Positions 57,140 to 63,878 of a stretch of DNA of 64,000 bases are shown here, in pieces; the stretch's first letter is position 1; each line of letters opens with the position of its first letter. Under the pieces are notes generated by a model. It searched no databases. It was not told where the DNA came from and was given only the letters and a program-made list of their open reading frames with translations. The DNA comes from Gammaproteobacteria bacterium (lineage in GTDB: Bacteria > Pseudomonadota > Gammaproteobacteria > Steroidobacterales > JABDKV01), in contig JAOTXU010000007.1 of NCBI GenBank assembly GCA_029862165.1, positions 1 to 64,000 on the forward strand, written 5' to 3'. Made by a program: the position numbers and the translations under genes.

Positions 57140-59152
57140 ATGAATACCAGCTATATACCGGTGATCATGGGAATCGTGGGCTTAGTCGCGGCCCTGCTGA
57201 TATACCAGATAGTCCGGCGATATCCGGCCGGCGAGGGCGAGGTGGCCGATATCGCCGAGCAAATACATGCGGGCGCCATGACCTTCATACGCCGCGAGTA
57301 TTTCTTGCTGTGGATTTTCACGGCCGTTGTTGCGGTGATTCTGTATTTCACGCCGGATCTCGGTAGTCATACCGCCGCCGCTTTTCTGGTCGGTGCCTTG
57401 TGTTCTTCGGTGGCCGGTGGAATCGGCATGTACACGGCGACGCGTGCCAATGTGCGCACGACCGTTGCAGCGCACGATCACGGTGCGGCAACCGCGTTGA
57501 GTATTGCCTTTTACGGCGGATCGATTATGGGGCTGACTATTGCGGCAATGGGGCTGCTGGGACTGGGCGGTTTGTATATTTGGTTTATCAGCTCGGCCCA
57601 GGATCTCCACAACGCACATCATCTGCATGGTTTTGGCATGGGAGCGTCTACGGTAGCGCTATTTTCACGTGTCGGTGGCGGTATCTTTACGAAAAGCGCC
57701 GATGTTGGGGCTGATTTGGTCGGCAAGATTGAAGCCGGTATTCCCGAAGACGATCCACGTAACCCGGGCGTGATTGCCGACAACGTCGGTGACAATGTAG
57801 GCGATGTGGCCGGTATGGGCTCGGATATCTTTGAATCCTATTGCGGGTCGATGATCGCGACGATCGCAATCGCGTCCACGATGACCGGGGCCGCGGCACT
57901 GGGAGGCCGTGCCGGGTTGATGGGTTTGCCGCTGCTGCTCGCGTCGATAGGCCTGGTTTGTTCGTTGCTGGGCATACTGATCGTGCGCCTGGCATCGGGT
58001 CGACAACCCGAAGTCGCGTTGCGCATGGGTACGTTCGGCGCCGCGGTGTTGTTTATTATTGCAGCTTACTTTTTTATCGACAGTACCGGGATTAGCAACG
58101 GTGTCTGGAAATGTGTGCTGGCCGGCGCAGTCGGCGGCATCATTATCGGTCTGATTACCGAATATTACACGGGTGGTCCACCGGTACGTAAGATCGCGAA
58201 GGCTGGCGAAACCGGCCCGGCGACGGTGATGATTTCAGGTCTTGCAGTCGGTATGCAGTCGGTAACCGTTCCCTTGTTGACTATCTGCGGGATTATTTAT
58301 GTTGGCAATATGTTTGCCGGTCTATACGGCGTTGGTATCGCCGCGGTCGGCATGTTGGCAACCGTCGGCATCACGATGGCTATCGATGCCTATGGCCCGG
58401 TTGCGGATAATGCGGGTGGCATAGCTGAGATGGCTGGTTTGGGTGAAGACACTCGCAAGATCACCGATTCCCTGGATGAGGTAGGTAACACCACTGCAGC
58501 GATTGGCAAAGGCTTTGCTATCGGCGCAGCAGCTCTCGCAGCTCTGGCCATAATCACGGCCTATATTGAAGTTGTGTCGCACGACAATCCTGACTTCTCG
58601 CTGGAGTTGTCCGACCCGACCGTTTTGATAGGTGTATTCCTGGGCGGTATTTTCCCGTTCCTGGTCAGCTCGATAACGATGACCGCTGTAGGTGACGCTG
58701 CATTCGAGATGATCCACGAGATCCGTCGGCAGTTTAAGGAAATTCCCGGTCTGCTCGAAGGCACGGCGAAACCGGACACAACCCGTTGTGTGGATATCGC
58801 CACGACGGCAGCACTCAAACGCATGGTGTTGCCGGGCGTGCTCGCCGTCGGTTCACCTGTAGTAGTCGGTCTGGCATTGGGTCCGCAGGCGCTTGGTGGC
58901 ATGCTCGGTGGTGCCTTGCTGGGTTGTGTGCTGATGGCTTTGTTTATGGCTAATGCCGGCGGCGCCTGGGACAACGCGAAAAAGTATGTCGAGAAGGGCA
59001 ACCTGGGTGGCAAGGGCTCGGAGACGCACAAAGCGGCCGTAGTCGGTGACACGGTGGGGGATCCCTTCAAAGATACCTCGGGGCCGTCGATGAATATTCT
59101 CATCAACGTCATGGCGATCGTCTCGCTGGTCATCGCGCCGATCCTCGTGTAG
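57140..59152 (+). CDS. hppA: Membrane-bound pyrophosphatase (K+-stimulated, H+ or Na+ pumping)
   Basis: A 670-residue protein with about 16 helices. It couples PPi hydrolysis to ion export. The catalytic loop motifs are [35 protein letters not shown] and DNAGGIAEM. In the segment [14 protein letters not shown] the Ala in TTAA and the following Gly match K+-dependent enzymes (K+-independent ones have Lys, TTKA). K+-dependent members can pump H+, Na+ or both; the ion is not settled here. Near the PPi-type phosphofructokinase it suggests a PPi-based economy. Gene ends just before the repeats. Confidence 0.93.
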
Positions 59153-60102: not shown

Positions 60103-61365
60103 TCAGAGTTGGAATCGGGTTTTGAGTCTTTTTCTGACGGATTTGTTTTTGAGCGTGACGTACTTTGGCAGCCCATTCTGGTAAGGCGGTGGTGCTTCGC
60201 CGCGGATTAGCGGTGCCAGGTAACGCCGCCCGCGCGCAGTGATGCCGAAACCGTCCTTGGTGATGTAGCTGCGCGGCATCATCTTTTCTTTGTTTGCGAC
60301 ATTCGCCAGCTTTGCTGTCGCGATTTTCCAGCGATAGGGTTTGTCCGAGATGCGTTTGATGATTGGCATCACGGCGTTCTCGCCCCGCACAGCGAGTTGC
60401 ACTGCCGCTTTGCCGACGGCATAGGCTTGTTCAACGTCGACTTTTGATGCCAGGTGTCGTGCCGAGCGTTGCAGGTAATCGGCAACGGCATAGTGGTATT
60501 TATAGCCGTGTTCGTCCTTGATCATTTGTGCGACGATCGGTCCGACACCGCCGAGTTGTGCGTGACCAAATGAGTCTTTAGTGTCGGCTTCGGCGAGAAA
60601 TCTTCCGTCCGGAGCGCGAACGCCCTCGGACACAACGATGACACAATAGGAATAACGTTCTACAGAATCCTTGACTCGCCGCATGAACGCCTTGCGATCA
60701 AACGGAATTTCCGGAAAAAGAATTATGTGGGGTGGCTCACCCGGTTTCTCACCGGCCAGGCCACCGGCCGCGGCGATCCACCCAGCGTGCCGGCCCATCA
60801 CCTCAAGCACAAAGACTTTGGTCGAGGTACGCGACATCGACAAGACATCCAGTGCTGCCTCGCGGGTGGAGACGGCAACGTACTTGGCGACCGAACCAAA
60901 GCCAGGGCAGCAGTCGGTAAGCGGCAGGTCGTTGTCCACGGTCTTGGGTACGCCGACACAGGTGATCGGGTGACCCAGCTTTTGGCCGATTTGTGAGACC
61001 TTGTGAGCGGTATCCATGGAGTCGCCACCGCCGTTGTACAAAAAATAACCAATATCATGCGCGGCGAAGACCTCAATCAGGCGTTCGTACTGGGCTTTGT
61101 TCTCTTCCAGACCCTTGAGCTTGTAACGGCAAGAGCCAAAGGCTCCACCAGGTGTATGACGCAATGCGGCGATTGCCGCCCGGCTGTCCTGGCTGGTGTC
61201 AATCAGATCCTCGGTCAGCGCCCCGATGATGCCGTCACGGCCAGCATATACCTTTGCTATCTTGTTTTTGTGCTTGGCCGCGGTCTCAATCACGGCGCAG
61301 GCCGTCGCGTTTATGACCGATGTGACGCCGCCGCTCTGGGCGTAAAACAGATTCATGGCCTTCAT
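60103..61365 (-). CDS. pfp: Pyrophosphate-type 6-phosphofructokinase
   Basis: A 420-residue PFK. The donor-site motif reads GGGDS (112-116): an Asp stands where ATP enzymes have Gly. The motif PKTVDND (140-146) has Lys where ATP enzymes have Gly (PGTIDND). These two changes mark PPi-dependent PFKs. MGRHAGW and the fructose 6-phosphate site are present. It interconverts fructose 6-phosphate and fructose 1,6-bisphosphate with PPi, reversibly. The start ATG at 61365 has a strong GGGGGA before it. It is divergent from adk. The activity should be tested, since motif rules have exceptions. Confidence 0.9.
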   Translation of the reverse strand: MKAMNLFYAQSGGVTSVINATACAVIETAAKHKNKIAKVYAGRDGIIGALTEDLIDTSQDSRAAIAALRHTPGGAFGSCRYKLKGLEENKAQYERLIEVFAAHDIGYFLYNGGGDSMDTAHKVSQIGQKLGHPITCVGVPKTVDNDLPLTDCCPGFGSVAKYVAVSTREAALDVLSMSRTSTKVFVLEVMGRHAGWIAAAGGLAGEKPGEPPHIILFPEIPFDRKAFMRRVKDSVERYSYCVIVVSEGVRAPDGRFLAEADTKDSFGHAQLGGVGPIVAQMIKDEHGYKYHYAVADYLQRSARHLASKVDVEQAYAVGKAAVQLAVRGENAVMPIIKRISDKPYRWKIATAKLANVANKEKMMPRSYITKDGFGITARGRRYLAPLIRGEAPPPYQNGLPKYVTLKNKSVRKRLKTRFQL

Positions 61366-61517
61366 TCGTCCCCCGATATTTCTGTGCTTTTTTTGATGCC
61401 GCCAGAGCATAGCCGAAAGCCCTGGCGCATACACTGGTTTGACGACAACCTGAGCACCCTGTAGCGTTACCGCGCTCCGGCGGCGGCGCGTCGGTGTAAT
61501 TTTATTGGAGGGCGCAG

Positions 61518-62750
61518 ATGCGGCTCGTATTGTTGGGGGCGCCCGGATCGGGCAAGGGTACCCAGGCCCAGAAACTGGTAAGCAAGTTCTCGGTGCCACA
61601 GGTATCGACAGGCGACTTGTTGCGCGAATCTGTGGAGGCCGAGACTACGTACGGTGTGCTGGCCCGCGACGCCATGGACGCCGGTAACCTCGTATCTGAT
61701 GAAATCGTGCTCGGCATCATCCGCGAGCGCCTGAGCGAGAAGGATGCGGCCAAAGGCTTCATCCTGGATGGTTTCCCGCGCAACATTTCCCAGGCCCAGG
61801 CATTGGACGAGCTGCTTGATGAACTGGAGGTCCCGCTGGACGGGGCCGTTCTGATGGAAGTCGACTATGAAGCCCTGATGCAGCGTCTGACCGGGCGCCG
61901 CACTTGTACCAGCTGTGGTGCGGTATTCAATGTCTTTACTTCCCCTGCCGCGCTGGACGATCGCTGCGACAGCTGTGGGGGTCGCTTGCGTCATCGCGCC
62001 GACGACAACGAAGATACGATTAACAATCGCTTACGGGTTTACGAAAACCACACGCGACCGGTAATTGCCTATTATGAATTTAATGGTTTGTTGAATCGGC
62101 TCGATGGTGTCGGCAACCCAGACGATGTGTTCAGACGCCTGGTTGATATCGTCAGGCCGTTGCGAAATCGCCGCCGACGCCGCATGGCAGCACGCGCATC
62201 GTTAACACGTAAATCAGAGCCAGTAGTTGAGCCGGAAGTGAAGTCCGGGCGTAAGCCAAAGGCCGCCAAGCCGGCTGTCAAGAAGGCTGCTAAAAAAGTG
62301 GCGAAGAAAAAAGTCGCCAAAAAGAAAGTCGGCAAAAAGAAGGTCGGCAAAAAGAAGGTCTCGAAGAAGAGGGCCGCAAAAAAGAAAGTCTCGAAGAAGA
62401 GGGCGGCCAAGAAGAAAGTTGCCAAGAAGAAGGCGACGAAGAGAAGAGTGCTCAAGAAGAAAAAAACCAAGAAAAAGGTGAGTCGTAAGAAGACATCTCG
62501 TAAAACTACGAGGAAAAAGACGTCAAAGCGGAAAACTTCGAAGAAAAAGGCCTCCAGGAAAAAGGCCTCGAAGAAAAAGACCACGCGTAAGAAGATGAAA
62601 AAGCGTCCAGCGAAAAAACGTGCGAAGAAGAAATCGTCGAAGAAGCGCAAGGCGACATCAAGGAAGACAACCAGGAAGAAGACCAAGAAGCGTGCGACGA
62701 AGAAAAAGGCAAAGAAGAAGAAGGCGAAAAAAAGGCGGTCGCGGCGCTAG
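61518..62750 (+). CDS. adk: Adenylate kinase with zinc lid and long Lys/Arg/Ala-rich C-terminal tail
   Basis: A 410-residue protein; normal Adk has about 215. Residues 1-215 form a full adenylate kinase: P-loop GAPGSGKG (7-14), STGDLLR, DGFPRN (84-89), lid with four Cys (130, 133, 150, 153) in the zinc-binding pattern, and DDNEDTINNRL. From about 245 to 410 the sequence is almost only Lys, Arg, Ala, Ser, Thr and Val, in repeats such as KKKVGKKKVSKKRAAKKK, like histone H1-type or AlgP-like tails. The DNA there is A/G-rich repetitive (62250-62747). There is no stop or frameshift at the join. The tail probably binds nucleic acid or polyphosphate; role inferred. GGAGGGCGCAG before the ATG gives a good ribosome site. 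Convergent with rnd. Confidence 0.93.
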   Translation: MRLVLLGAPGSGKGTQAQKLVSKFSVPQVSTGDLLRESVEAETTYGVLARDAMDAGNLVSDEIVLGIIRERLSEKDAAKGFILDGFPRNISQAQALDELLDELEVPLDGAVLMEVDYEALMQRLTGRRTCTSCGAVFNVFTSPAALDDRCDSCGGRLRHRADDNEDTINNRLRVYENHTRPVIAYYEFNGLLNRLDGVGNPDDVFRRLVDIVRPLRNRRRRRMAARASLTRKSEPVVEPEVKSGRKPKAAKPAVKKAAKKVAKKKVAKKKVGKKKVGKKKVSKKRAAKKKVSKKRAAKKKVAKKKATKRRVLKKKKTKKKVSRKKTSRKTTRKKTSKRKTSKKKASRKKASKKKTTRKKMKKRPAKKRAKKKSSKKRKATSRKTTRKKTKKRATKKKAKKKKAKKRRSRR

Positions 62751-62786: not shown

Positions 62787-63878
62787 TCAGTCGCCGATCC
62801 CGGCGAGCAACTGCTCACCGATGATTTCCCGGCGCCACCCGCGCAGCGGCGCGGCATTCGGATCGCGGCGGACCACCGCCGTCACATCGCGGCGGGACGC
62901 CAGAGTGGCCGCGCTGACGCCGATATCCGCAGCAACACGGCGAACCCGATCCATCAGCGCAATCACGCGTTTCCGCTGTTGCGGGCTCAGGGGGGCCGGC
63001 AAATCCGGTACGGGATCTTCGCAGCGCTGCGCGGCAGAGACTATATCAAGCAACTTCGACGCCTTTCGAAATAGTGGCCGTGGTAGCCCCTTAATTTTCT
63101 CCAGCGCATTCTCCGAATCCGGCAGCGCTGTGGCGATCCTTAGCAAGACGTCATCGCGCAGTATCCAGCCGCGTGGTCGATCCAGATCGATCGCGCGGTC
63201 TTCACGCCATTGCGCGAGCAAGCGTGCCGCGTGATATTGAGGGCCACTGAGAGCTCCGAGCCCGCCCAGGCGTTTCCATGCCATAGCCGGTTCCACAGTA
63301 TAAAGTGCAGGATTGATTAATCGCTCACAGTCTTCCTCTAGCCAGCTCGTTCGTCCTTGTTCGCGTAGTTGTTCGCTTAGTTCCTCGTATATCGGTATCA
63401 GATATCGTGCATCGTCCAGAGCGTATTGCAACTGCTGCTCGCTAAGCGGTCTGCGGGACCAGTCGGTCCGTGTATGGCTCTTGTCTAATTCTACTGACAA
63501 CAATTGCGAAGCAATTGCTGCCAGACTCCCCTGGTCACCCAGGCCACATAGATCGGCGGCAATTTGAGTATCAAACAGCGGCCCCGGGGCCCGACCGGTC
63601 AGCTGGACAAAGATCTCGAGATCCTGGCGCGCTGCATGCAGCACCTTTGTTATAGTTGCATCGAGCAAAACAGATGTCAGCGACGACAAGTCATCCAGTG
63701 CGATAGCGTCTACACATGCCGCGGTAGTGTGGGTGGCCAATTGAACGAGACACAGGCGGGGGTAATAGGTATGTTCACGAACAAATTCCGTATCGACCGC
63801 AACAAACTCCTGGCCGCGTAGTTTCCGGACAAGTTTTGACAAACCTTCCCGCGTATCGATCAGTGGTGTTGTGGTCAT
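62787..63878 (-). CDS. rnd: Ribonuclease D
   Basis: A 363-residue 3'-5' exonuclease for tRNA and small RNA ends. The DEDD residues are visible: VAVDTEFVREHTYYPRLCLVQLA (Asp-Glu), LHAARQDLEIF (Asp), and LQYALDDARYLIPIYEEL (Tyr-Asp). An HRDC domain follows (AMAWKRLGGLGALSGPQYHAARLLAQWREDRA). Length and start match E. coli RNase D (375). Convergent with adk, 36 bp apart. The 122 bp beyond its start to the window end hold only promoter-like sequence. Confidence 0.95.
   Translation of the reverse strand: MTTTPLIDTREGLSKLVRKLRGQEFVAVDTEFVREHTYYPRLCLVQLATHTTAACVDAIALDDLSSLTSVLLDATITKVLHAARQDLEIFVQLTGRAPGPLFDTQIAADLCGLGDQGSLAAIASQLLSVELDKSHTRTDWSRRPLSEQQLQYALDDARYLIPIYEELSEQLREQGRTSWLEEDCERLINPALYTVEPAMAWKRLGGLGALSGPQYHAARLLAQWREDRAIDLDRPRGWILRDDVLLRIATALPDSENALEKIKGLPRPLFRKASKLLDIVSAAQRCEDPVPDLPAPLSPQQRKRVIALMDRVRRVAADIGVSAATLASRRDVTAVVRRDPNAAPLRGWRREIIGEQLLAGIGD

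Follow-up and report, generated by a model that had tools for sequence, protein, structure and literature searches.

The window, the whole 64,000-nucleotide stretch that was analysed, contains an adenylate kinase (Adk) gene whose reading frame runs on from the enzyme core into a long basic tail (Table 1). The core is complete, as the original prediction had claimed: residues 1–213 match PF00406 (E = 1.5e-53) and the lid profile ADK_lid (PF05191; E = 6.3e-11, 42.4 bits against a cut-off of 26.6), and the protein scores 276 bits against NCBIfam NF001380, whose cut-off is 251. The four-cysteine zinc LID is formed by C130, C133, C150, and C153, and the catalytic motifs (columns K13, R36, R88, R123, R160, and R171) show no variation among 31 aligned Adks, some tailed and some untailed. 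AlphaFold models residues 1–230 with a pLDDT of 86–97, and the best PDB fold matches are the Zn-LID Adks 1zin/5g3y. These two structures and the NF001380/TIGR01351 Adks share the core, the catalytic motifs, and the four-Cys LID with the window protein, but they end near residue 217 without a tail. We found neither a stop nor a frameshift after the core, and the frame is open to residue 410.

Table 1. Genes and features at the adk locus of the window.
Feature	Position	Strand	Evidence
H+-pumping pyrophosphatase hppA	57140–59152	+	PF03030, E 7.9e-254
Phosphofructokinase, PPi-type by inference, divergent to adk	60103–61365	-	PF00365
adk Shine-Dalgarno GGAGGG, 5 bases before ATG	61507–61512	+	sequence
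adk ORF, 410 aa, ATG start	61518–62750	+	open across all 410 codons
Adk core, residues 1–213, P-loop GAPGSGKGTQ, long LID with Cys130/133/150/153	61518–62156	+	profiles, alignment, AlphaFold, PDB matches
Helical extension and linker, residues 214–252	62157–62273	+	helix predicted as far as residue 232, no structure beyond it
H1-like Lys/Arg/Ala/Ser/Thr-rich tail, residues 253–410	62274–62747	+	composition; pLDDT about 50
adk stop codon TAG	62748–62750	+	sequence
Ribonuclease D-like gene (DNA_pol_A_exo1 and HRDC), convergent to adk	62787–63878	-	domain matches

This Adk is the sole PF00406 match in the genome of the window (assembly 94.5% complete), and no E. coli-type Adk was found in that genome at 1e-50. 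Because its motifs are intact and it is present as a single copy, the gene product is predicted to be a working zinc-LID Adk with the activity ATP + AMP = 2 ADP, and the enzyme is probably essential. About half of the genomes with a tailed Adk contain further Adk-like matches, which in some cases are plainly another Adk, untailed and of the E. coli type, and the tailed copy is therefore not everywhere the only Adk supply. The tailed Zn-LID type and the untailed E. coli type occur together in genomes G089, G130, G169, G179, G289, and others, and two Adk types in one genome would permit a division of labour.

AMP and PPi are the two products of tRNA charging, and the divergent phosphofructokinase–adk pair would fit a locus for the handling of both. 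Many members of the clade have this pair, whether or not their Adk is tailed, and it is thus uninformative on the tail itself. A link between the tail and this PPi cluster (pfp and hppA as neighbours) was suggested by raw counts of 33/46 versus 1/47, in which the untailed set included non-Gammaproteobacteria; when all gammaproteobacterial loci are considered, pfp is also found beside adk at 18 untailed loci, no association emerges from independent pairs, and we rejected the link.

The extension past residue 214 is 196 residues long, with 57% Lys plus Arg, 2% Asp plus Glu, and a net charge of +109. Its basic part proper begins at about residue 253 and spans 158 residues, so that the predicted basic tail is present but is somewhat shorter than the roughly 165 residues first estimated. 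Segments of 100 residues within it reach a net charge of +63 with 46–52 Lys, against +24 at most for the next unrelated reading frame of the window, making the tail an extreme outlier. AlphaFold gives it a pLDDT of about 50 and no secondary structure, and it is accordingly predicted to be disordered. At the DNA level it contains only diverged 15/30-bp repeat units (71–87% match), which rules out a fresh expansion by slippage. The tail is Lys/Ala-rich and disordered in the model, with acidic residues scarce, and the original description of it as H1- or AlgP-like is borne out by these figures. This likeness to histone H1-like proteins of the AlgP and HC type is one of kind and need not reflect homology, and by analogy the tail is predicted to bind DNA.

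To place the tail among relatives, we surveyed 370 gammaproteobacterial genomes, retrieved the loci, and built a core tree of 166 Adk rows. Tailed Adks make up 97 of the 166 rows and come from about 40 family-level groups of Gammaproteobacteria; comparable tails are found in the same genus (G002, G003), in the same family (G004), and in more distant relatives. These tails span 84–316 residues, mostly with 26–58% Lys plus Arg, whereas the untailed gammaproteobacterial Adks stop at 213–223 residues. Mapped on the core tree, the tail label requires at least 9 changes, compared with a mean of 52.8 for shuffled labels. The pattern is that of one deep, large, mostly tailed clade with losses, together with separate events such as L016/L019, although gain and loss are not strictly separable on this quickly built tree because its root was not inferred. 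As the losses indicate, some lineages can do without the tail. Five loci (L067, L068, L126, L130, and L167) have a further charged, possibly coiled-coil segment past the basic tail. An assembly join or sequencing error as the source of the architecture is refuted, since it is shared by relatives whose genomes were assembled independently. As judged from these comparisons, the tail is real, old, and common to many related bacteria.

The view that no standard Adk carries such a tail, which would have made the window gene a one-off, does not survive this survey, nor does it fit a separate family of tailed Adks in Alphaproteobacteria. NF010381/PRK13808 scores above its cut-off in 3 of 150 genomes of the phylum (G450, G519, and G555), all of them alphaproteobacterial-type and from one family. 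These Adks resemble the window protein in having a C-terminal Lys/Ala-rich tail; unlike it, they have a short LID without the zinc domain, and their tail is shorter, at about 90 residues. The window protein scores 189.5 bits against NF010381, below the cut-off of 426, and is therefore not a member. Because the alphaproteobacterial tail sits on another Adk subtype, tails on Adk arose more than once.

Similar tails are found on other proteins of the same bacteria. The genome of the window encodes, on contig C43 (L002:1078–1761, minus strand), a DksA whose N-terminus is extended by about 110 Lys-rich, H1-like residues, with a weak match to HC2, and N-terminally extended DksA proteins are widespread in the order (L201–L205, L208, L209, L211, L212, and L214). 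The same genome has, on contig C22 (L217), a topoisomerase TopA with a Lys-rich C-terminal tail, as do L197–L200, all outside Actinobacteria. In one genome (G009, L213), ribosomal protein S2 is prolonged at its C-terminus by a Lys-rich stretch, and stand-alone H1-like ORFs are present in the same order. Two of these carriers, S2 and TopA, are nucleic-acid-binding proteins, and the partner of DksA is RNA polymerase.

Basic tails of this kind have experimental precedents: in AlgP, HupB, and actinobacterial TopA they are important for binding DNA, associating with the nucleoid, or positioning granules (PMC9239181, PMC5676037, PMC7398561). The KPAA tails of AlgP and PhaF are one precedent, with AlgP associating with granules (PMC9239181), while the HupB tail is required for nucleoid association (PMC5676037), and Lys repeats stabilise the enzyme–DNA complex of Streptomyces TopA (PMC7398561). 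AlgP and PhaF of Pseudomonas resemble the window Adk in that their tail is disordered, rich in Lys and Ala, and comparably long, but their tails are built of KPAA units on a carrier domain that is no enzyme and have known partners (DNA, granules), whereas the window tail consists of KKxxKK units on an enzyme. Actinobacterial TopA and mycobacterial HupB likewise have a basic tail on a conserved core, in their case shown to promote DNA binding; their carriers bind DNA already, whereas the carrier here is an enzyme of nucleotide metabolism. The like tails on DksA, TopA, and S2, together with the AlgP, HupB, and TopA experiments, lead us to prefer a nucleic-acid tether: we consider it slightly better than an even chance that the H1-like tail makes this Zn-LID Adk bind polyanions, most likely nucleic acid, independently of their sequence.

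In one family (f74; L248–L265 and L079), the tail may also be made by itself. In all 19 tailed adk genes retrieved from this family, which represent 5 genera, the Lys-rich tail opens with an in-frame ATG; about 8–9 bases upstream of it lies AAGGAG (17 genes) or AAGGAA (2 genes), and the surrounding linker diverges. We predict that a free H1-like protein is nested in adk of this family, and the nested start points to the tail as a self-contained module. An example is residue 287 of L112, and L075 is similar. Strong internal start sites are otherwise rare across the 97 tailed genes, most of which have no Shine-Dalgarno sequence there; the candidate in the window gene, M223, also lacks one and was rejected. 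The suggestion of an in-frame fusion with a small neighbouring histone-like gene gains from these internal starts and from unfused neighbours elsewhere. A stand-alone H1-like gene of the MAKKKTAKKK type lies on the same strand 150–260 bp downstream of untailed E. coli-type adk in L059, L062, L064 (= L218), and L219, and the downstream sequence of L057 and L061 likewise has a stand-alone H1-like gene. Such neighbours are rare, however: these unfused loci, about five, came to light by their Lys-rich patterns, which biases the set, and among 30 unselected E. coli-type adk loci just 2 have an H1-like neighbour, so we discarded this arrangement as the general ancestral state.

Several alternatives to the nucleic-acid tether were weighed. 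The tail might be a functionless low-complexity expansion, tolerated because it does no harm to the enzyme, and its variable size, its imperfect 15/30-bp repeats, and its repeated loss would all fit such an origin. We regard this as improbable in view of the selection acting on it. Between close pairs, ω is about 0.09–0.38 in the tail and 0.02–0.08 in the core. Amino-acid changes that take a single base preserve the charge class in 81% of cases for L001–L004 and L001–L005 (the window gene and its congeners), where a mutation model expects 47–48%, and in 94% versus 62% for L084–L093, figures that the uncertain gapped alignments of repeats may flatter; in the gap-free pair L118/L122 the tail ω is 0.38 and the charge class is kept in 65% versus 52%. 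Purifying selection acts on the tail and probably maintains its length and positive charge more than its exact sequence. Acidic residues are few although Glu is one base away from Lys, and both the persistence of the tail across a deep clade and its independent acquisition in Alphaproteobacteria also speak against a neutral expansion.

Polyphosphate (polyP) had been named among the possible targets, along with nucleoid, ribosome, and RNA. The tail would then bring Adk to polyP granules and couple AMP/ADP phosphorylation to polyP, as with AlgP, whose association with granules (PMC9239181) is the precedent; the genome of the window has PPK1 and two PPK2 matches. Among near-complete genomes (51 with a tailed and 29 with an untailed Adk), however, PPK1 and PPK2 are both absent from 14 of the 51 tailed ones, including the single-contig G179 and G132, and from 1 of the 29 untailed ones, the opposite of the predicted direction. 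Tailed Adks are thus not confined to polyP makers, and we rejected polyP as the general target, to which we give little credence; it may be a partner in some species, that of the window included. Nucleoid, ribosome, or RNA anchoring stands as the best reading of the targets named earlier, and it may couple the ATP/ADP balance to those sites as had been suggested. It is also conceivable, though unlikely, that the H1-like tail, serving as a nucleoid protein, is itself the functional unit, with Adk as its expression partner, and that the tail acts fused and in some lineages also free, by way of an internal start or proteolysis. The start and Shine-Dalgarno sequence kept in 19/19 genes of f74, the similar case of L075, and the unfused genes that follow untailed adk at L059, L062, and L064 favour this view, against which stand the missing Shine-Dalgarno sequence at M223 of the window gene and in most tailed genes, and the 2/30 frequency of such neighbours in unselected E. 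coli-type loci.

Returning to the nucleic-acid tether, a tail that is real, old, and shared probably anchors Adk to DNA or RNA. Since polycations attach to polyanions of every kind in vitro, the true partner is not readable from sequence. The module would probably have originated early in the large gammaproteobacterial clade, either as an H1-like segment that became fused to Adk or as one that grew de novo, and would then have been kept for its length and positive charge and lost several times. The disordered tail would hold Adk on nucleoid DNA and/or on ribosomal and transfer RNA, near polymerases, ligases, and aminoacyl-tRNA synthetases, where ATP is consumed and AMP and PPi are released. 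Nucleic-acid binding, the cellular location, and a benefit for AMP/PPi recycling are what we infer for the tailed enzyme. The full combination, in which Adk is anchored to nucleic acid throughout the clade, ATP/AMP exchange takes place at the nucleoid or ribosome, and one family additionally makes a free H1-like protein from the nested start, is a tentative proposal that we would place somewhat below even odds.

In the tailed Adk, a known enzyme and a tail of a known kind are newly combined in a conserved and apparently undescribed architecture; in the literature searched, which left subscription journals mostly outside, we found no description of a tailed Adk or of the nested H1-like start. 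The nested start is a simple case in which one gene apparently gives both an enzyme–histone fusion and a free histone-like protein. The adenylate energy charge is set by Adk, usually regarded as a 24-kDa protein that diffuses freely. If the proposed tether is true, it would mean that in dozens of bacterial families the energy charge is managed locally, at the nucleic-acid machinery.
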